The position numbers and the translations under genes are program-made. This document shows, piece after piece, positions 32,796 to 42,565 of a stretch of 64,000 bases of DNA (positions within the stretch are counted from its first letter, which is position 1; the number at the start of each line of letters is the position of its first letter). Below the pieces are notes generated by a model. It was given only the letters and a program-made list of their open reading frames with translations, was not told the origin of the DNA and searched no databases. The DNA lies in NCBI GenBank assembly GCA_019828595.1, contig JAHQRK010000020.1, positions 1,240,001 through 1,304,000 on the forward strand. The letters run 5' to 3'. Source of the DNA: Aphanomyces cochlioides. Its lineage: Eukaryota; Oomycota; Saprolegniomycetes; Saprolegniales; Verrucalvaceae.

Positions 32796-34331
32796 AAGTG
32801 GTGGAAATAAGTATACGACAGTACCTAAATTTGACTCCTACACACTCAGGATTGGTCAAATGAAGATGAAAATCAGCCAATAGGAAGTTAATATAGACAG
32901 AGTCAACTCGGTGTCTTTTCCCGCTCTTGATTTCGCGCCAGAGTTCCGTTGTGCTTGATGCACGCATTGAAGTTAAGAAATAAGTATATGACAACCAGCA
33001 GTATTTTGAAAATATCCTGAGCATTCAACACAAACGAGAGAAGCTAACACCATAGGAAGGTAATGGAGCTATGAAAGCATGACTCTAGTAACTTAAAACG
33101 ACAGAACTACATGGCCAAGGGTCCCAAAATGAACGAAGAAGAGAAGATTAAAGCAATGGTTCTCTGGAGAGAAGGCCTGACTGTCAATGCGATTGCCAGG
33201 CAATTGCAGAGGTCGCGTGGTTGCGTCAAACACTTTTTGAGTACTCCAGGGACTTATGGGACTACCCAACCACCCGGTAGGCCACCGTCCGTGGACGATG
33301 CAATGCATCGTCGACTGCTTCGCCATGGCCGGACCGGCCTTTACACTGCTGCTGGTCTTGCTGAAAAGCTCGACTTGAACTTAACACCAAGGCGAGTTTG
33401 TCAACTGTTGAACAAGAGCGGGAAAGTGAAGTACAAGAAGAGATTAGCTGCGCCAATGATGACGCCACTACACATGAAAAATCGTGTCAAATGGGAGACT
33501 GAGGCGCAGTAGAATGATCTCAATTTCAAGCAAATTGTTTGGTCCGACGAAAAGAAATGGAATCTAGACGGCCCAGACGGATTTAACTACTACTGGGCCG
33601 CTCTAGACCGGCAAAGAGAACACTTTTCCAAACGTCAACACGGAGGTCCCAGCCTCATGATTTGGGGGGCATTTAGCTCCCAAGTGAAGTCAGAGTTGGC
33701 TTTTCTACAAGGCAAGCAAGACTCAGAGGCGTATATATACGCTTTCGGAGTTTTTGTTGCCATTTGCGCACAAGTATCATGGTTGCGACTGGCAATTTCA
33801 GCAGGATAATGCTGCCATTCACACTGCAAAGTGTGTTTTGGAGTGGTTTAAAGAACCAGAGATTGCGATTAATGTGCTTGACTGGCCAGCCAAGTCACCA
33901 GACTTGAACCCTATCGAAAATCTTTGGGGTATTATGTCTAGGCGCGTTTACGACAATGGAAAGCGCAAGTTCAAGTCTCTCGGAGAATTGAAGTCTCGAA
34001 TCCTAGAAGTATGGGCAGAAATTGATGTTGCTTTGTTGCGCAAGCTCGTTGCATCCATGCACAAGCGATGTGCCAAAGTTGTTGCTCAAAAGGGTAGAAA
34101 AATTAAGTATTAAATACATTTTTCTGCATCGTGTCATATATATATTTCTCTACCTCAAGTGATTTAGCCCTAGCACAAGAATGATTTTTTTATCCTATGT
34201 ATGGAATACCATGATGACGAGATCCGCTGATTGATGACAATTACGTCGATGCTTGTGTTGATGTTTATTCACAAGTTGAAAGTGATTTGGGTCATCATAT
34301 CTCGACTGTCATTTACTTATTTCCACTACTT
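32796..34331 (+). mobile_element. Tc1-like element, decayed
   Basis: Left end (32796-32822) AAGTGGTGGAAATAAGTATA and right end (about 34305-34331, inverse) AAGTAGTGGAAATAAGTAAA are imperfect inverted repeats. A further copy of GAAATAAGTATATGACA lies inside the left end near 32978. The flanking TA is clear on the right only. It encloses one transposase gene on the plus strand. Confidence 0.7.
33111..34113 (+). pseudogene. Tc1-like transposase, stop codon and frameshift
   Basis: Starts MAKGPKMNEEEKIKAMVLWR with a paired HTH region (NAIARQLQRSRGCVKHFL; GLAEKLDLNLTPRRVCQLL). An in-frame TAG at 33510-33512 interrupts it. The same frame resumes with IVWSDEKKWNLDG and GGPSLMIWGAF, breaks near 33745, and continues from 33754 with QQDNAAIHTAKC and SPDLNPIENLW. 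About 36 residues separate the second Asp and the Glu. The C-terminus is otherwise normal. Dead copy. Confidence 0.85.
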
Positions 34332-35043
34332 TATGAGGGGTAATCAAGTTTAGAAATTCAGTCGCTTTATTCGTATTTATTTTCATGTTCAAAGCGTGAA
34401 ATTTGAGTCGGAATGGCTTCTTCTAAAGCGGTCTGAATAGTGGGGAATCAAAGCTCAAACTTAAAAAGCAAAATATACCCCGATCTTGCTGGTTGGAGCT
34501 TAAGGTATTCTCGGAGATCATCCATTGGCTTATTTTTGAAATAGATAAATTTTATTGGCTCAGTCAAGAAAGTACATGATCGAGATGTCATCAACGCAGT
34601 TTTAGTCGTCGCAACATGAATTGGTTGAGGCCTATCGTCACTTAAGGACGACACCAAAGCGTGAGATTGCGCCTACGGTAAACTTGATTCTGAAGCGTCT
34701 GGTCGCTGCATGTACAGGACTAGAGAGGAATTCTCCTGAGTTTGGCATAATAATCGAATTGATTTCATGGAGGGAGGAACGCTTTGCGATGTTTTTGCCA
34801 TTTGAAACAGTGTTATGGTCAATCAAGTGCCCGCAGATAAGAGGCGATCTAGGTCAGATTGTGGCAATCTTTCCTCGATCTGGATGGATAATGTGGGGGC
34901 CCTTTAGCTCTGGATTCGAGTGAGTTTTTTTCCGACCGTGGTGGTTTCAAACCCTTGACTCCTATGTCCAACGTCGAACCACTCTATGCAACGCATGCGA
35001 TGGAAATGACAGAACAACAAGACACTATTAGGGGGATAGACGG
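34332..35043. other. Flank of the gypsy insertion with a possible transposase scrap
   Basis: At about 34862-34920 the plus frame reads GWIMWGPFSSGFE, resembling the MIWGAFSS segment of Tc1-like transposases, so a short relic may be present. The remainder is not recognised. 35039-35043 (GACGG) is the left target-site copy of the gypsy element. Confidence 0.35.
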
Positions 35044-35245
35044 TGTAAGGGGACGTGACACCCTTACTACAAGAACCCTCAATACAATGACAAGATCTGG
35101 GATCTTGTCGTTTCGCCACGACAGCGATGCAAGATCGCGTGGTAGTTTCGAAACCACTTAGATCTTAAGCGATAACTCTAATGTCACTCTTCAATTTGCG
35201 AAGTACCGGGCTTGTCTCTACTTTCTCTGCACAAGCCCCGTTACA
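35044..35245 (+). repeat. 5' LTR
   Basis: 202 bp, TGTAAGGGG at the start and GTTACA at the end. It differs from the 3' LTR at only two positions that I can see, implying a recent insertion. TGGTAGCACTCTAG, two bases downstream (35248 on), is the likely primer-binding site. Confidence 0.95.
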
Positions 35246-35279
35246 CCTGGTAGCACTCTAGTTCGTTCAAGGACCCAGC

Positions 35280-36459
35280 ATGGCGTTCGAATACGCAACC
35301 TACTTCACCGACGGACATCGGGTGACCCTAGAAGGCCTCCGCGATCTTATGGGAGATGACAACCTGGCGATTATGTTGTCTGATCGTCCCGAGCAACATT
35401 TGCTCAACCTGGTGGAAGTTATTGGGCGCTATGCTGACTCCGCCCGCGCAGGAGAACATGCGCGCAGCTTGGCTCAGATTAGCCAGCTGGAAAACGAAAC
35501 TCGAGAGATGAAAACCTCTCGAGTGGAACTCGAAGGCCAGGTCCTCTCGCTCACTGCAGCGAAAGCCCTCCTAGAAGAGTCCCTTCGACAAATGTATGAT
35601 GGCCACGAAGAAGACTCTGACAGTCATTTCCCAGCGTCAAGTTACAAACAAAGGCGTCAAATTGGATGTGGCCAAGTTCAGTGGCCAAGATTCGGATCAT
35701 GTCTTACGATGGCTCCTTCAAGTCACCATTGCAGCAGACGCATTGAATATCACCCAAGAATCTTTGAAGGTCGCATTTGCGATGTCCCATCTCAAGGGAC
35801 GAGCTGAAGCCTGGGCTTATTCGCTGCGTATGGCGGATTCAAATTGCTTTCCAACGCTTGCTGCATTCTCGTCCCAACTCAAGGAAGTATTTTTACCCCC
35901 AAACAGCGATTTCCGTCACCGCTCGCGCTTCTTGAGCGCGACTCAAAGAAAGTCGACGATCCGTGAATTTGTCCAAGAACTGCGCTATCTTCACGCCTGC
36001 ATCACGGATGAAAGCTCCTTACCCGAAGCTACACGAGAGACCGTGTTTATGAATGGTCTCAATCAAGGCCCAGCACGGACCGAGCTGTTCCGCCATTACC
36101 CGAAGACCTTTGAGCAGGCCGTTAGCATGGCGCTCTCCGAAGATTTTTCGCAATCCATGGCACGCGCCGATCCCTTGGAATCTCTCGACATGGATGTGTC
36201 TTCCATACAAAAAGAAGCCTCACTGGTAGAACGACTCTGTTACGAGTGTGGCCGTGCTGGCCATTTCGCACGAGACTGTGCCTTGCGCCACGAAGCGCGC
36301 CGCTGGGGCACGCTACAACGATATGAGCGTCCCACACGTTCTCGAGACACCTCTCCATCCCAACGCTCCAACGCGTTTTTCCGTCGCAATCGCGCTCTGC
36401 ACAACCGGGGCCGCGTAGAGTTCACAGCTCCCACTCAGGGAAAAGGCAGCACCCAGTAG
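35280..36459 (+). pseudogene. Gypsy gag with a frameshift
   Basis: The 5' frame (MAFEYATYFTDGHRVTLEGL...) contains a coiled-coil-like stretch, then breaks near 35630. The next frame continues with the retrotransposon-gag core (AFAMSHLKGRAEAWAYSLR, FLPPNSDFRHRSRFL, FMNGLNQGPARTELF) and a CCHC zinc knuckle (CYECGRAGHFARDC) near its C-terminus. It would package element RNA. Confidence 0.85.
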
Positions 36460-36521
36460 GCGCGAGGCGGCCTACTGGGGCAAGATTAGGCTTCCTATTT
36501 GACCGTGGTGGGGATACACGG

Positions 36522-36983
36522 TTGGGCGGCCAAGCCTCCGGCACTCTCCTGTGCCAAATCCGACAACAAGTGGACATGTTGTCATTTGAGATCCCTATCC
36601 CCGGGTTCTCACGTGATCTGAAAGTATTGATTGACTGTGGCGCCTCAGAGAATTACGCGCGGCGCCAATCAATGGAAATGAACGCACCCCTGCTGACGGC
36701 AGCGGTCGCGGCTAGCGACGACCAAGCAAAGGCCAACGTAAAGATGGCGGACGGGAAGGTTATCGTCGCGCCTCGAATTTTGATTACCCTACTGACGAGG
36801 GTCGGCCCGTTTGAAGCCGACGAAGACTATTACGTCATTGATCTGGATGAGCGCTGGGACCTCATCCTTGGTATGCGCTGGCTCGAGAAGCACCAACCTC
36901 TGATCAATTGGACGTCCAAGACCATGCACAAGGCGCCCTCGACAGCATTGGATTCCCTGATGATTCCTGGGAGTGATGAGTAA
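36522..36983 (+). CDS. Gypsy aspartic protease region
   Basis: A 153-residue frame with the retropepsin-like motif LIDCGASENYARR (Cys in place of the usual Thr/Ser of D-T/S-G) and a downstream LILGMRWLEKH, the standard partner motif. It ends at a TAA in the first copy of the 561-bp duplication; normal elements read on toward RT. Confidence 0.75.
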   Translation: MGGQASGTLLCQIRQQVDMLSFEIPIPGFSRDLKVLIDCGASENYARRQSMEMNAPLLTAAVAASDDQAKANVKMADGKVIVAPRILITLLTRVGPFEADEDYYVIDLDERWDLILGMRWLEKHQPLINWTSKTMHKAPSTALDSLMIPGSDE

Positions 36984-38040
36984 TGAGCTCACTTCCGACC
37001 CCACGAGAGTCTCGCAGTTTACCACGCGAGATGTGGCGACGGACTTCGCATGCGTCCCGCGCCCCACAGGCCCTGCACATACTGCTGTCGACATGTTGAG
37101 CAGGCCGGCCGATTTTGACAACGATGGCATTGGAGATGCCATGTCAAGCGAGATTGACGACGACGCCTGGGACGTCTGTCATGTTATTCGATCAGGAGCG
37201 CCAGCAACACCCGACTCTGCGACTGATATGATGGCTCTGTCTGCCTTACACGACGCAGACTCGTATTATGTGGACGAAGAAACTCGTCGAAACACAATTT
37301 TCAACGTCCTCCAATCACGAAGATTCTCCGGTTTGAGATCCACCCGACGCTCCAAGCGCCACCAAGGCGCAATAGGTCGGGTTGATGCCGAAGACCTTAT
37401 CCTCCATTACTGCAACCTGAAGGATCTGCCCCAGACGGGCAAAGAGATCGTGAAGCTCCCCGAAATGGATTATTGCGCAAGACCATGCACAAGGCGCCCT
37501 CGACAGCATTGGATTCCCTGATGATTCCTGGGAGTGATGAGTAATGAGCTCACTTCCGACCCCACGAGAGTCTCGCAGTTTACCACGCGAGATGTGGCGA
37601 CGGACTTCGCATGCGTCCCGCGCCCCACAGGCCCTGCACATACTGCTGTCGACATGTTGAGCAGGCCGGCCGATTTTGACAACGATGGCATTGGAGATGC
37701 CATGTCAAGCGAGATTGACGACGACGCCTGGGACGTCTGTCATGTTATTCGATCAGGAGCGCCAGCAACACCCGACTCTGCGACTGATATGATGGCTCTG
37801 TCTGCCTTAGACGACGCAGACTCGTATTATGTGGACGAAGAAACTCGTCGAAACACAATTTTCAACGTCCTCCAATCACGAAGATTCTCCGGTTTGAGAT
37901 CCACCCGACGCTCCAAGCGCCACCAAGGCGCAATAGGTCGGGTTGATGCCGAAGACCTTATCCTCCATTACTGCAACCTGAAGGATCTGCCCCAGACGGG
38001 CAAAGAGATCGTGAAGCTCCCCGAAATGGATTATTGCGCT
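36919..38040 (+). repeat. 561-bp perfect-looking tandem duplication inside pol
   Basis: 36919-37479 and 37480-38040 are near-identical; the one difference I see is TTACACGACG versus TTAGACGACG. The unit covers the protease end and the PR-RT linker. 561 is a multiple of three but the unit contains a stop, so the duplication does not keep one long frame. Confidence 0.9.
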
Positions 38041-38690
38041 TTTGAGAGCGCGCTCCGATCGCATGAGATCGTGAGCATCGCCGTAATCTATGCGATGGAT
38101 GATTACAGCTGGCGACATCATCAACACTCGACCCCGCGGTCGCGGACGCGCCTGGCGCGTCGGCTTACGACCAGCATTGGGAAGCCCTCCGTGCGTCCCC
38201 CTTTTATGATCTCCTGCGGGAATTTGCTGATGTATTTCCCGAGGAAGTTCCCCCATCCCTGCCCCGAGATAAGGGCGTCAGACATGAGATTGACCTGACA
38301 CCAGGAACGAAGTGGTGTGTCACGCGCCAATGGCCCATGCCTAAAGAACAAGTCGAGCACAATGACGCCTTCTTCGAAAAGCGTCGACAAGCTGGCCACG
38401 TCAGGCCAAATACCTCACCGCACTCCAGTCCGACATTCTGTGTGAAGAAAGCCACAGGCGGCTGGCGTATCGTCCACGCCTACAACAAGTTGAACGCAGC
38501 GACTATCCCCGCACAGACGCCGATTCCCCGCAAAGACGTCATTATCGACAGCATGGCCGGTTCGACCATCTTTTCCACGATCGACCTGAGAGATGGATTT
38601 TACCACATCCTCATGAGAATCTGCGATATCCCCAAGACTGCTGTCTCGACGCCAAGTGGAATGCTTTGGGAGTGGCTTGTGATTCGTCAT
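38041..38690 (+). pseudogene. Gypsy reverse transcriptase fragment
   Basis: After a frameshift near 38205 the plus frame reads FADVFPEEVPPSLPRDKGVR, WPMPKEQ, SSPTFCVKKATGGWRIVHAY and FSTIDLRDGFYHI, the N-terminal RT motifs. It stops after TPSGMLWEWLV near 38680. The catalytic YxDD box, thumb and RNase H are absent: the sequence jumps straight into integrase, so an internal deletion of more than 1 kb is inferred. Confidence 0.85.
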
Positions 38691-39835
38691 GTCCGAGTTC
38701 CATGACACCCCCAGCGGTGGCCATCTCGGCCGCGAGAGAACCTATCTCGCCGTAGCACGTAACTTCTGGTGGCCCCGCATGTACAAGGGTGTCGCTCGAT
38801 ATGTGGCATTGTGCCCAACCTGCCAGCAGGTCAAGTCATCGCCGAGTGTGCAGGCCCCCCTCCACAGCCTTCCGATCCCTGACGAGCTCTGGTCGTCCGT
38901 CAGCATGGACTATATCTTTGGACTCCCGCGTGACAGGCGCGGTAATACTGGCATCTGGACTTGCGTCGACCGCGCGTCCAAGTTTTTGGTTGCCATCCCG
39001 GTCAAGGATACAATTACTGCCGCCCAGTCGGCTCAAGTGTTTTTCGACACCGTCTACTGTCGCTTTGGCCTCCCCAAATCGATTATCTCGGACCGTGATC
39101 CTCGTTTCACGTCCACATTTTGGACGGCCCTCTTTTCCTTGGTGGGCTCCAAATTGAATATGTCCACCTCTGACCATCCAGAGTCTGATGGTCAGACAGA
39201 ACGTGCGAACCGCGTCCTTGAAGACATCTTGCGTAGCTACACGCAGTCTCGACCGAAGACCTGGAGCTCGCTGCTTCCACACGTCGAGTTCGCTTACAAC
39301 ACGTCAGTGAATGCCTCCACCGGCTTCACTCCCTTCTACGTCAACTTCCTCCGGCACCCGCGCCTGCCCTCCTCGATGGACAGCACTTGCTTAAGTGGGG
39401 GAGGATTCCACTGGGCTGCTTCGAGCCATTCCCCTGACTGGGTGCCGACAGGCACAGAGGACGTGCCTCCGGCGAGGACGATTTCCTCTGTCGAGAACTT
39501 TATTCGCACACGGGAGTCAGTCATCTCCCAAGTGCAAGACAACTTAGCACTCGCACAAGCTCGACAAGCTCGCGAGTCCAACAAACATGGACGAAAGAAC
39601 ACCAATGTATTTACCCTTCAAGACCAAGTCCTATTACACAGGTCGGCGGTACCGCAAGCCGCCCTTGGCAACGCTAAACTTCGCCGCCAATGGTATGGTC
39701 CATTTTCTATCACAAAGGTTGTGAGCGCAGTGTCCTACCGCTTGCGACTCCCAGACGAATGGTAGTGCCACGACGTCTTTTATGTCGGCAAACTGAAACC
39801 GTACATACCTCGCACTACGCCTGACTTGAGCCCGA
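38689..39835 (+). pseudogene. Gypsy integrase with a premature stop
   Basis: Contains the tail of the HHCC zinc region (GGHLGRERTYLAVARNFWWP, CPTCQQVK) and the DDE core: SMDYIFGLP, ISDRDPRFTS and SDHPESDGQTERANR. The C-terminal GPFSITKVVSAVSYRLRLP is followed by a TAG at 39763-39765 where the normal protein continues (HDVFYVGKLKPYIPR). Everything else is intact. Confidence 0.88.
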
Positions 39836-40000
39836 ACGACTCGACGGCAGAGTCTCGCCACCACTTGAATGACCTGGCTGCGCAATCGGCTCTTGTACCT
39901 CGGGCGCTTGAGCAGCTGCCGCCGGCAGTGCGGCAACAAGAAGTGCACGATCGCGTGCACACCCTCCTCCAAGACAGAGAGTCGCTAGTTCACGGCGTGG

Positions 40001-41226
40001 TCAACACGCGCCGCGTTGCGGCATCTCGCGGACTTGAGATCGGTGACGCCGCGAAGGAGACCGAGAATTTGAACTTTGCCGTCTTGGAGGCGAACCGGAA
40101 CGGGAACGACGCGCTTGAGAATGCCGTCCGCGAGAACGAGAACGAGAACGACGCGCTTGGGAATGCCGTCCACGGAAATGAGAGAGAGAACGCGAACGAG
40201 ATTGTCGGCCCGACGAGCGGCCACGCTGATGATGCGACGACTGGTGTCGATCGCGCAAGGGAGAGACCGATTGAGAACGACGCGCCTGAGAGCGGCGTCT
40301 AGAAGAATGGACTGGCGAGGCCGAACGCCGATGAGCACTACCCTGCGACGGGAAATCCGTAGGCTGCTCGTAGCCGTGGGATCGATCCCAACCACCGCCG
40401 GCTGCGACAAAGTCCTACAAGAGAAGTGAACGAAGAATCGAAACGGAGTTAGCTCACCCCGTTGCCGTCGCACAAGGTCAGCGACAACGGAATAATGGAT
40501 GCGTGGACCACGAAGGCGCCAATTTGCAAAAGCCACGATGTCCCGGAGCGTGTTGTAGAAGTTTCCAAGGATATGAGCGCGCTGGCGGCCTTCACGATAG
40601 GCAAGTTTCAAGACCCAAACACCAGCATACTCGACGGCAGTCTCATCGATGATGGGGATCACTGGAGCACAAGTAGGGTGCGACTGACTTGGTTGAGTCG
40701 ACGTCGGACGACGTCGGTCTTGGCTTGCCAACTCATCACGGCGCCGCAATGCTTCGCGGTAGTCCTGTCACTGCAATTGGGACATTACCATCGAGCGAAA
40801 AGTGAAGAACAAGTCCAAGGCAACAATGACCAAATGGTGAAATAGCAGCGTGTCGCTGATACCGCGCTTCAGTTGGTTCGCTAGACGAGCGACTTTCGCG
40901 AAGTCGGGACGCCGCGCAGGGTCCGGCAAGATCGGCGGTACAGGCAAGAACTCCGCCGCGGCAAACTCGTCTTGGTCCCGCCAAGAATTGAAGACCTCGT
41001 CGTCATGTTGGGCAAGGCGCGTCATGCCAAGACGGTATGGCGGTGGCCTTGGAGTTTGAGCGTATTCGCGCGCGATGCGATCGTTTGAGTGGTGCATGCC
41101 AACAGTCGAAGATGCAAAATCATCAATGCTGCGATTGGACAAACTGCCAGGACTCCTGTCCCTTCCCAAGACGACGGGACGAGAAGAACCTCCAACAAGC
41201 GGCTCTTGTCGGGAGGAAGTGCGCAT
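40001..41226 (-). CDS. Antisense three-exon gene inside gypsy, RS-rich C-terminus
   Basis: Minus strand exons 41226-40831 (132 codons), 40764-40474 (97) and 40414-40001 (137 plus stop) are separated by 66- and 59-nt GT-AG introns, all in phase 0. Total 366 residues. The N-terminal half is Pro/Arg/Asp-rich (PPPYRLGMTRLAQHDDEVF, RPDFAKVARLANQLKRG). The middle is protein-like (IIDETAVEYAGVWVLKLAYR, HILGNFYNTLRDIVAFANWR). The tail is an arginine-serine domain with repeated RGRHSQARRSRS units, as in SR-type splicing factors. It lies between integrase and the 3' LTR, the position where antisense ORFs are known in some plant gypsy elements. Function not recognised. The splice model is inferred from phase alone. 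Confidence 0.6.
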
Positions 41227-41293
41227 TTCAAACGGGGATTGAAATGATTGGCAATGCTTTCAAACCGTGGGTTTGATTGCAGGTGGGGGAGGG

Positions 41294-41495
41294 TGTAAGG
41301 GGACGTGACACCCTTACTACAAGAACCCTCAATACAATGACAAGATCTGGGATCTTGTCGTTTCGCCACGACAGCGATGCAAGATCGCGTAGTAGTTTCG
41401 AAACCACTTAGATCTTAAGCGATAACTCTAATGTCACTCTTCAATTTGCGAAGTACCGGGCTTGTCTCTACTTTCTCTGCACAAGCCCCGTAACA
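41294..41495 (+). repeat. 3' LTR
   Basis: 202 bp, preceded by a purine-rich tract. Differences from the 5' LTR are CGCGTAGTAG versus CGCGTGGTAG and GTAACA versus GTTACA. Confidence 0.95.
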
Positions 41496-42565
41496 GACGG
41501 CTGTTCGGGTTACCCTTGGCGCTCCAAACACTCACATCTACGATTAAATCAAATTGATCCAGTCTTCGTGGATATGAAGATGACGCGATCGATGAAGTTG
41601 TTAGGTCTTCACTGCCAAACTTGATCCCGTGCAATATATTTCGTATGACTTGCATTTAAATGCAAGAGGTATTGTCATTTTCAACCAAATTTGTGGTTTT
41701 GACCAAAAAGCGAATTCATTTTCAAATCGATTTCATCATACTGAAGCGGTGTGTATCAGTGTGTGTTTTGCGTGAGTTAGGTGGCTGATCGATGCTAATT
41801 GGCTGACTAATTTTACATTTTTAATTCTAGCCAATCAGAGAAGCCCGTTCGATTCGGAATCGAACCGAAACCTCGGTCGATTCAAACCGTTCCTCACAAT
41901 TTTGTATCAAACGCACAATATGAAATATAATGCAAGTCATGCGAAATATAAATTTTGCGGTCATGACCCTGGTCATGACCAAGAAAATAAATATCAGAGA
42001 TATAGTTTCCAAATTGGCTGTTTTTGAATAAATGAAGACACTCAAATAGAACGGAGCCTTATTTTGTTTTTTTCGAAAATGGAGATTTTGACATGCCCAG
42101 AATTGGAATTTCCAGGGGAATCCAAATTTGTACTCCATTTTCAACGAATCGATCTCGTTCTCGAGATATCGGTTTGATAAGGGCCCGTCTGGCAACCGAA
42201 AATATTACAATAAATGGGCCCAAAATGCCATTTTGAGGCCAAATTCAATAATTGAGGTCAAAATATGAACTTGTTTATCTCCAAGAGTTTTGCACCAAGT
42301 GCAATATTTTTGGTTGGGATATACTCAGTGGAGGCTCCCAAAATGCCATTTTACGAAATGGAGGTTTTTCCTCCAATTTGAATATGCCATAAATCGTTGA
42401 TCCCATTTTGGCTGAAAATGGCATATTGATTTTGAAATTTTGCCAGACGTACCCTAACCTATTTTAATTTTGGCGAATCAAACATGTTCATCTTGAAAAG
42501 AAATAAAGCATTGGAATATAGGACGTGAGAGTAATAGAATTTCATAAGTTTTTGAAGTTCTGTAA
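41496..42565. other. AT-rich non-coding stretch
   Basis: Starts with the right target-site copy GACGG. Contains an 18-bp perfect palindrome (41649-41666, CTTGCATTTAAATGCAAG), a GGTCATGACC motif near 41960 that recurs near 46300, and several AAAATGCCATTTT motifs at 42220-42420. No gene recognised. Confidence 0.4.

Follow-up and report, generated by a model that had tools for sequence, protein, structure and literature searches.

The window analysed here, a stretch of 64,000 nucleotides of the Aphanomyces cochlioides genome (contig JAHQRK010000020.1), contains a Ty3/gypsy LTR retrotransposon with paired LTRs and a short target-site duplication. Its LTRs of 202 bp each, with TG...CA ends, show 2 differences between them. 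Pfam matches follow the order gag, protease (below cut-off), reverse transcriptase (RT, partly deleted) and integrase on the plus strand, and a predicted gene occupies the minus strand between integrase and the 3' LTR:

35039..35043, left target-site duplication, GACGG
35044..35245, plus strand, 5' LTR, 202 bp, TG...CA
35596..36459, plus strand, gag, with Retrotrans_gag, Ty3_capsid and a CCHC zinc knuckle
36522..36983, plus strand, protease region, aspartyl protease matches under curated cut-offs
38337..38705, plus strand, reverse transcriptase fragment
38689..39765, plus strand, integrase, with Integrase_H2C2 and Tf2-type SH3 passing the cut-off and the rve core narrowly missing it
39766..40302, plus strand, pol C-terminal tail frame, opposite antisense exon 2, with a stop at 40300-40302 in the window copy
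40004..40414, minus strand, predicted antisense exon 2, RS-rich, 137 codons here
40098..40192, 42-bp tandem repeat (14 codons) within the RS-coding stretch
40415..40457, minus strand, predicted antisense intron, 43 nt, GTGAGC...TTGTAG, phase 0 where the deletion is absent
40458..41226, minus strand, predicted antisense exon 1 (helical domain), interrupted by a stop at 40768-40770 and lacking 14 nt close to its end
41227..41293, minus strand, antisense leader from the 3' LTR to the antisense ATG, with a polypurine tract (by eye) and a TCATTTC motif
41294..41495, plus strand, 3' LTR, 202 bp
41496..41500, right target-site duplication, GACGG

This copy is a defective, decayed member of its family. 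The integrase comes directly after the RT fragment, so the remaining RT and the RNase H would be missing here, and the integrase frame meets an early stop at its end. Moreover, the protease-to-RT region holds an exact 300-nt direct repeat (36917-37216 and 37478-37777, 561 bp apart), which is a recent internal duplication. No match to known RNA families was obtained over 34500-42000. Next to the element, two plus-strand ORFs at 33111-34113 appear by eye to be pieces of a Tc1/mariner-type transposase.

The initial annotation read the minus strand of 40001-41226 as three exons separated by two introns and ending in an arginine-serine-rich tail. This reading is present in the DNA: the three exons named join to 366 residues, all in phase 0, and the tail contains 49% R or S across 137 residues and 66% in its best 50-residue stretch. 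With 23 RS/SR dipeptides (shuffle mean 16.4, maximum 27), the tail is striking by its composition, the RS/SR pairing alone staying within the shuffle range. The exon structure, on the other hand, had to be revised to two exons, since the claimed first intron (40765-40830) is coding in other copies: it is read through as protein in other members of the family as well as in the A. euteiches proteins P0007 and P0008. In the window copy this segment contains an in-frame stop (40768-40770) at codon 153 of antisense exon 1, which is a stop in L011 too. The second intron is real and its acceptor-side end at 40415 was correctly placed, but its start was wrong, the intron covering 40415-40457 (43 nt) and not 40415-40473 (59 nt). 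Directly before the donor, the window copy has lost 14 nt whose bases are kept in 12 of the 14 other copies. About 104 nt (counted in alignment columns) are also absent after the RS stretch and present in 13 of the 14 other copies, and it is because of this deletion that exon 2 ends at 137 codons in the window. The annotated A. cochlioides protein AC1031_009539 matches the earlier 366-residue model at 94%, the match covering 83% of the searched part. What is retained from the initial annotation is a putative protein-coding gene that is spliced, runs antisense within a gypsy element, lies between its integrase and 3' LTR and ends in an RS-rich tail.

A DNA search of the 76.2-Mb assembly with 40001-41288 gave 17 matches, which correspond to 15 element copies sharing the antisense region (two of them matched twice), here called family A. 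Wherever the frame is kept, the antisense ORF is unbroken from its ATG through the segment formerly taken as first intron. Exon 1, of about 260 codons and encoding the predicted helical domain, is followed by an intron of 43 nt (45 in L007) running from GTGAGC to TTGTAG, with GT conserved in 14 and AG in all 15 copies, and then by the RS-rich exon 2. In six copies (L007, L008, L009, L010, L014, L015) the latter stays open over 218-278 codons. Beyond the RS stretch it continues into a C-terminal part, which has been lost from the window copy. Both exons are open over their full length in one of the 15 copies; in L003 (= L025), exon 1 is open and exon 2 shortened. Exon 2 lengths of 218, 232, 248 or 278 codons (L007, L008, L009, L014, L015) differ partly by 14-codon steps. 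An unrelated gene of the same genome displays an apparent 41-nt GT-AG intron (L078, 1743-1783), and very short introns may be usual in A. cochlioides. In the leader, the TCATTTC motif begins 21 nt 5' of the antisense ATG in 11 of 14 cases. Presumably resembling the oomycete initiator, it gives a weak lead for the antisense transcription start; the 3' LTR (41294..41495) would be the expected source of the transcript.

More distant relatives were found in a genome search with exon 1 of one copy, which returned 38 matches, 22 in family A copies and 16 elsewhere. The eight of these 16 whose loci were fetched are 28-36% identical, and all eight are antisense to an integrase. Of the eight that were not fetched, coordinates place five opposite an integrase match; one is on the same strand as the nearest match and two have none among the matches listed, giving 13 of 16 antisense to an integrase overall. 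The fetched loci constitute family B (L037, L043) and family C (L041, L042, L044-L047); integrase identity to family C is 70-71% for family B and 75-77% for most A copies. As the integrase search scored 131 of 555 candidates, the counts are lower bounds. The one match on the same strand as its adjoining integrase match (G000 contig C10, 988728-989195) is a weak relative and possibly belongs to a rearranged element.

In families A, B and C the predicted gene lies between integrase and 3' LTR and its intron is at the same place. The intron measures 43 nt in family C (GT in 8 and AG in 9 of 9 copies) and 40 nt in family B, with a donor of our own choice. Exon 2 is RS-rich in the three families, the best 50-residue stretches reaching 62-70% R+S. 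RS/SR dipeptides amount to 17 in family C (shuffle mean 8.7, maximum 18), 21 in family B (9.7 and 20) and 15, 25 and 43 in three family A copies (means 9.5, 14.1 and 22.4; maxima 18, 25 and 34); the pairing thus exceeds all shuffles only in L008 and in family B, and elsewhere is above the mean and within the maximum. For exon 1, we compared all six frames of one family with all six of another. In every A/B/C comparison the antisense frame is the best conserved of the 36 frame pairs, with scores of 270 (A-B), 183 (A-C) and 178 (B-C), where shuffles reach at most 49, 48 and 44 and the runner-up, the sense mirror of this frame, scores 144, 85 and 73.

Family D (L070-L072, L074-L077) is further away, with an integrase about 60-64% identical to that of family C. 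It has antisense ORFs at the same place as A-C (six loci among the matches listed) and, in 6 of 7 loci, a 39-nt GT-AG intron between the exons; in L077 the first pattern found no intron and a looser one gives a candidate site. The A. cochlioides genome contains at least 24 matches to the family D protein, of which seven reach 91% or more over almost the whole length. A. euteiches models such as P0043 combine the two-exon layout with a KRGR-type basic stretch, SPSR motifs and, at the C-terminus, a predicted coiled coil, and C-terminal helices are confidently predicted for one family D protein. Family D is devoid of a true RS repeat, its best 50-residue stretches containing 28-36% R+S. Three profile comparisons gave no significant similarity between its exon 1 and that of A-C (probability at most 1.1%). 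Position, short intron and two-part layout agree between family D and A-C, and a shared origin is therefore a guess from these three features. Across families, the predicted antisense gene has two exons with an intron of 39-45 nt between them.

We estimated dN/dS by the pairwise Nei-Gojobori method, with ranges from codon bootstraps, dropping codons with gaps or stops; some copies were partial. For exon 1 of the 15 family A copies it is 0.41 (0.30-0.57), compared to 0.34 (0.25-0.48) for the integrase of the same copies. In the same region the two other antisense frames give 0.99 and 1.16 and the sense frames 0.99, 1.18 and 0.49, the last mirroring the antisense codon positions and holding 134 stops. 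Over the 15 copies the sense frames accumulate 38, 81 and 134 stops, versus 11 in the antisense frame. Family C (9 copies) displays the same pattern, with 0.31 (0.22-0.44) for exon 1 and 1.19-1.59 for the other frames, except the sense mirror frame (0.40, with 95 stops). Purifying selection thus acts on the protein frame of exon 1, at about the strength seen for integrase. Exon 2 is weakly constrained in family A (0.67, 0.47-1.00) and reaches 0.47 (0.32-0.72) in family C. Since dN/dS blends selection during transposition with neutral decay after insertion, the constraint is probably understated. The initial annotation had envisaged that the minus-strand frame might lack conservation in other copies; the frame is conserved and its dN/dS is low.

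The plus-strand frame over the same DNA had been described as only a low-complexity shadow. This was overstated, as it is the C-terminal tail of pol, though its selection signal is indeed weak (dN/dS over exon 2 of 0.76 in family A and 0.99 in family C). The tail could be anchored in 13 of the 15 family A copies. In four of them (L006, L008, L009, L011) it crosses the entire antisense exon 2 and stops within the intron, L006 and L011 having an end different from that of L008 and L009; in the other nine it stops earlier. In both family B copies it stops about 50 nt into exon 1, and in two of four family C copies (L046, L047) about 7 nt into it, the other two stopping earlier; end positions in B and C were partly compared by hand. 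In family D, three of six pol tails extend into exon 1, by 39, 162 and 478 nt, and the other three stop before it. These positions indicate that pol and the antisense gene converge and overlap tail to tail and that, in A-C, nearly all of exon 1 is free of an opposing sense gene (as judged from the pol tails of 4 A, 2 C and 2 B copies).

Exon 1 could not be assigned to a Pfam family, whether in the window model, in its A and C relatives or in the exon-1 alignment. An RRM was not found in these same sequences, family B exon 2 being outside the scan, and the ‘SR-like’ label of the initial annotation therefore holds for the RS-rich tail and not for the protein as a whole. Transposase_28 (PF04195) is not among the Pfam matches of A and C, nor among the 25 of 26 families viewed in the family D scan. 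No bZIP match appeared in the scanned A and C proteins; in family D, 3 of 15 members match bZIP_1 with a best E of 0.05, which is not a confident bZIP. Exon 1 is predicted all-helical at low confidence. With pLDDT values of 47 and 43.6, the AlphaFold models are too uncertain for fold matching, and PDB fold and sequence searches (best E 3.2 and 0.03, respectively) did not identify a fold. RS regions in general tend to be phosphorylated, to reside in the nucleus and to bind RNA or proteins. Among the candidates scored, those sharing most words, the A-C profile collected 37 proteins and the family D profile 12, all named A. cochlioides or A. euteiches. The family C junction and the RS exon recur in several A. 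euteiches gene models (e.g. P0011, P0034).

From layout, composition and evidence of selection, our best-supported guess is an accessory factor that works in the nucleus on the RNA or chromatin of the element; such action has been proposed for antisense genes of plants and is reported for HBZ (PMC11963269 and PMC7264820). By its sequence, this Aphanomyces Ty3/gypsy group carries a putative third gene, antisense, between integrase and 3' LTR. Its exon 1 encodes a conserved domain. Its exon 2 encodes a basic stretch, which three families have strongly RS-rich, and then a C-terminal part predicted to be helical or coiled-coil in one family; where pol is open, the strand opposite exon 2 encodes the pol tail. 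Transcribed from the 3' LTR or its edge and spliced, the gene would yield a nuclear protein, the nuclear action being suggested by composition. The RS region could bind RNA or nuclear factors and the C-terminal helix could multimerise. The protein would act in trans, either in nuclear handling or export of the genomic RNA or in the control of sense transcription. The intron could survive transposition because the RNA that is reverse transcribed is the sense strand, on which antisense splice sites would not be read. To a spliced antisense third gene encoding a nuclear RS/helix protein that acts in trans on element RNA or chromatin, we give a probability of roughly 55%. Against it count the shortness of the introns (39-45 nt) and the weak constraint on the family A RS exon taken alone, which is similar to that on the pol tail over it. 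Further points against it are the RS/SR pairing within the shuffle range in most cases, the single family A copy of 15 with both exons fully open, the deviations of family D (exon 1, RS repeat, pol tails), the three distant matches that do not fit or could not be placed, and the lack of a Pfam or structural match that would give an activity.

A bolder version can be proposed tentatively. The gene might be a spliced regulatory counterpart of HBZ or Rev, evolved independently and old in the clade, whose product would combine RS and coiled-coil parts and handle element RNA or chromatin in the nucleus. Its antisense orientation to the transposition intermediate would protect the intron. The RS exon would be the pol tail read from the opposite strand, changing in length partly by 14-codon repeat units, and A-C and D would descend from a single gene, with an exon 1 too diverged for the relation to be detected.

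Rather than a nuclear regulator, the product could be structural, i.e. a second, nucleocapsid-like nucleic-acid binder within the particle. A basic RS-rich stretch joined to a self-associating helix would suit RNA coating, purifying selection resembles that on integrase, and the RS stretch of family C gives sub-threshold matches to a viral nucleocapsid profile (E 0.04-0.2). Yet these Pfam matches are far under the cut-off and probably reflect RS composition, the sense gag with its capsid and zinc knuckle leaves no packaging function missing, and a separate antisense RNA would presumably not share the stoichiometry of gag-pol. We therefore find a packaging role unlikely. Copy-number control, in which the protein represses its own element or competitors via nuclear element RNA, LTR chromatin or integrase, seems to us improbable to a similar degree: the antisense nuclear proteins of HTLV, as presented in PMC11963269, offer a parallel and the gene adjoins the LTR, but sequence cannot by itself separate a negative from a positive role. 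It is less probable again that the antisense transcript is itself the functional product, controlling copy number as dsRNA or siRNA with little importance of the protein. Such roles are discussed for other retrotransposons in PMC7264820; however, the exon 1 dN/dS of 0.31-0.41 in two families and an amino-acid conservation between A, B and C well above that of other frames argue that selection sees the protein. Finally, an overprinting artefact, the frame being a by-product of base composition or sense coding, is very improbable: exon 2 does lie opposite the pol tail, with RS codons mirroring an ENEN-type low-complexity sense frame and weak constraint in family A, and half of the family D pol tails enter exon 1, but exon 1 in A-C is nearly free of opposing sense coding, and over the 15 family A copies it is the sense frames that accumulate stops.

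The preferred reading, a nuclear accessory protein encoded antisense, can be set beside known systems. HBZ of HTLV-1 has a spliced structure and a bZIP domain. The Aphanomyces gene shares with HBZ a predicted two-exon structure and, by prediction in family D, a C-terminal coiled coil; the likeness is one of gene layout and conserved splice sites. As with HBZ and APH-2, the gene is antisense to gag-pol at the 3' end and starts near the 3' LTR (according to the account in PMC11963269). It differs by the lack of a confident bZIP and by residing in a retrotransposon and not in an exogenous virus. As stated in PMC11963269, the antisense nuclear proteins of HTLV take part in the viral life cycle and have transcription factors among their interaction partners.

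The plant Tat/Retand genes termed aORF-3R (Grande gene23, RIRE2, the Retand TRP28 ORF), as described in PMC7264820 and PMC11963269, are likewise antisense and located between pol and 3' LTR. As in the Aphanomyces gene, these aORFs are conserved in many copies and in related families, with tandem repeats in the same region, and a nuclear location is reported for Grande gene23 in these two papers. The Aphanomyces gene is distinguished by the lack of a PF04195 match, an RS-rich exon, a conserved short intron and an oomycete host. The main texts of PMC7264820 and PMC11963269 contain the word ‘intron’ 0 times and ‘splic’ 2 and 5 times, respectively; the former asks its readers to seek antisense spliced transcripts. 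Outside plants, Boty of Botrytis cinerea is an LTR element with an antisense aORF between pol and 3' LTR according to PMC7264820; it is fungal, and is likened here by description alone. Overall, the Aphanomyces gene would work most like the plant Tat/Retand antisense genes and HTLV HBZ.

SR splicing factors have in common with families A-C a region of more than 60% R+S over 50 residues; the Aphanomyces protein differs in having no detected RRM and in being carried by a mobile element. As neither the RRM nor the defining domains of the Tat/Retand aORFs and of HBZ were found, we do not class the gene with those systems or as an SR protein. A captured host SR gene is rejected, given that no RRM was found in the sequences scanned and that the A copies and the large majority of distant matches noted above lie antisense to an integrase. 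Among oomycete Ty3/gypsy elements, Archon, which comes from Saprolegniales, and Chronos are described in PMC5348765, whose main text contains the word ‘antisense’ 0 times. The Archon group has an additional archaeal-type RNase H; the corresponding region is missing in the window copy.

In searches of the open-licence full-text literature we found no report of an antisense gene in an oomycete LTR element. As far as searched, the oomycete host, the conserved short antisense intron and the RS-rich exon overlapping the pol tail are new. The antisense accessory genes known in LTR elements come chiefly from flowering plants, in which their role has not been settled, and from retroviruses of the HTLV type. 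An oomycete case with a conserved intron and integrase-like selection would point to repeated invention of antisense regulators, and would show how a retroelement can keep an intron. Stranded RNA-seq of A. euteiches (accession GSE109500) is reported in PMC5907361, whose annotation was trained on RNA-seq. Public annotation lists such antisense genes as hypothetical proteins, as is the case for P0001-P0006, P0010 and P0038, with varied exon choices that often leave the RS frame.
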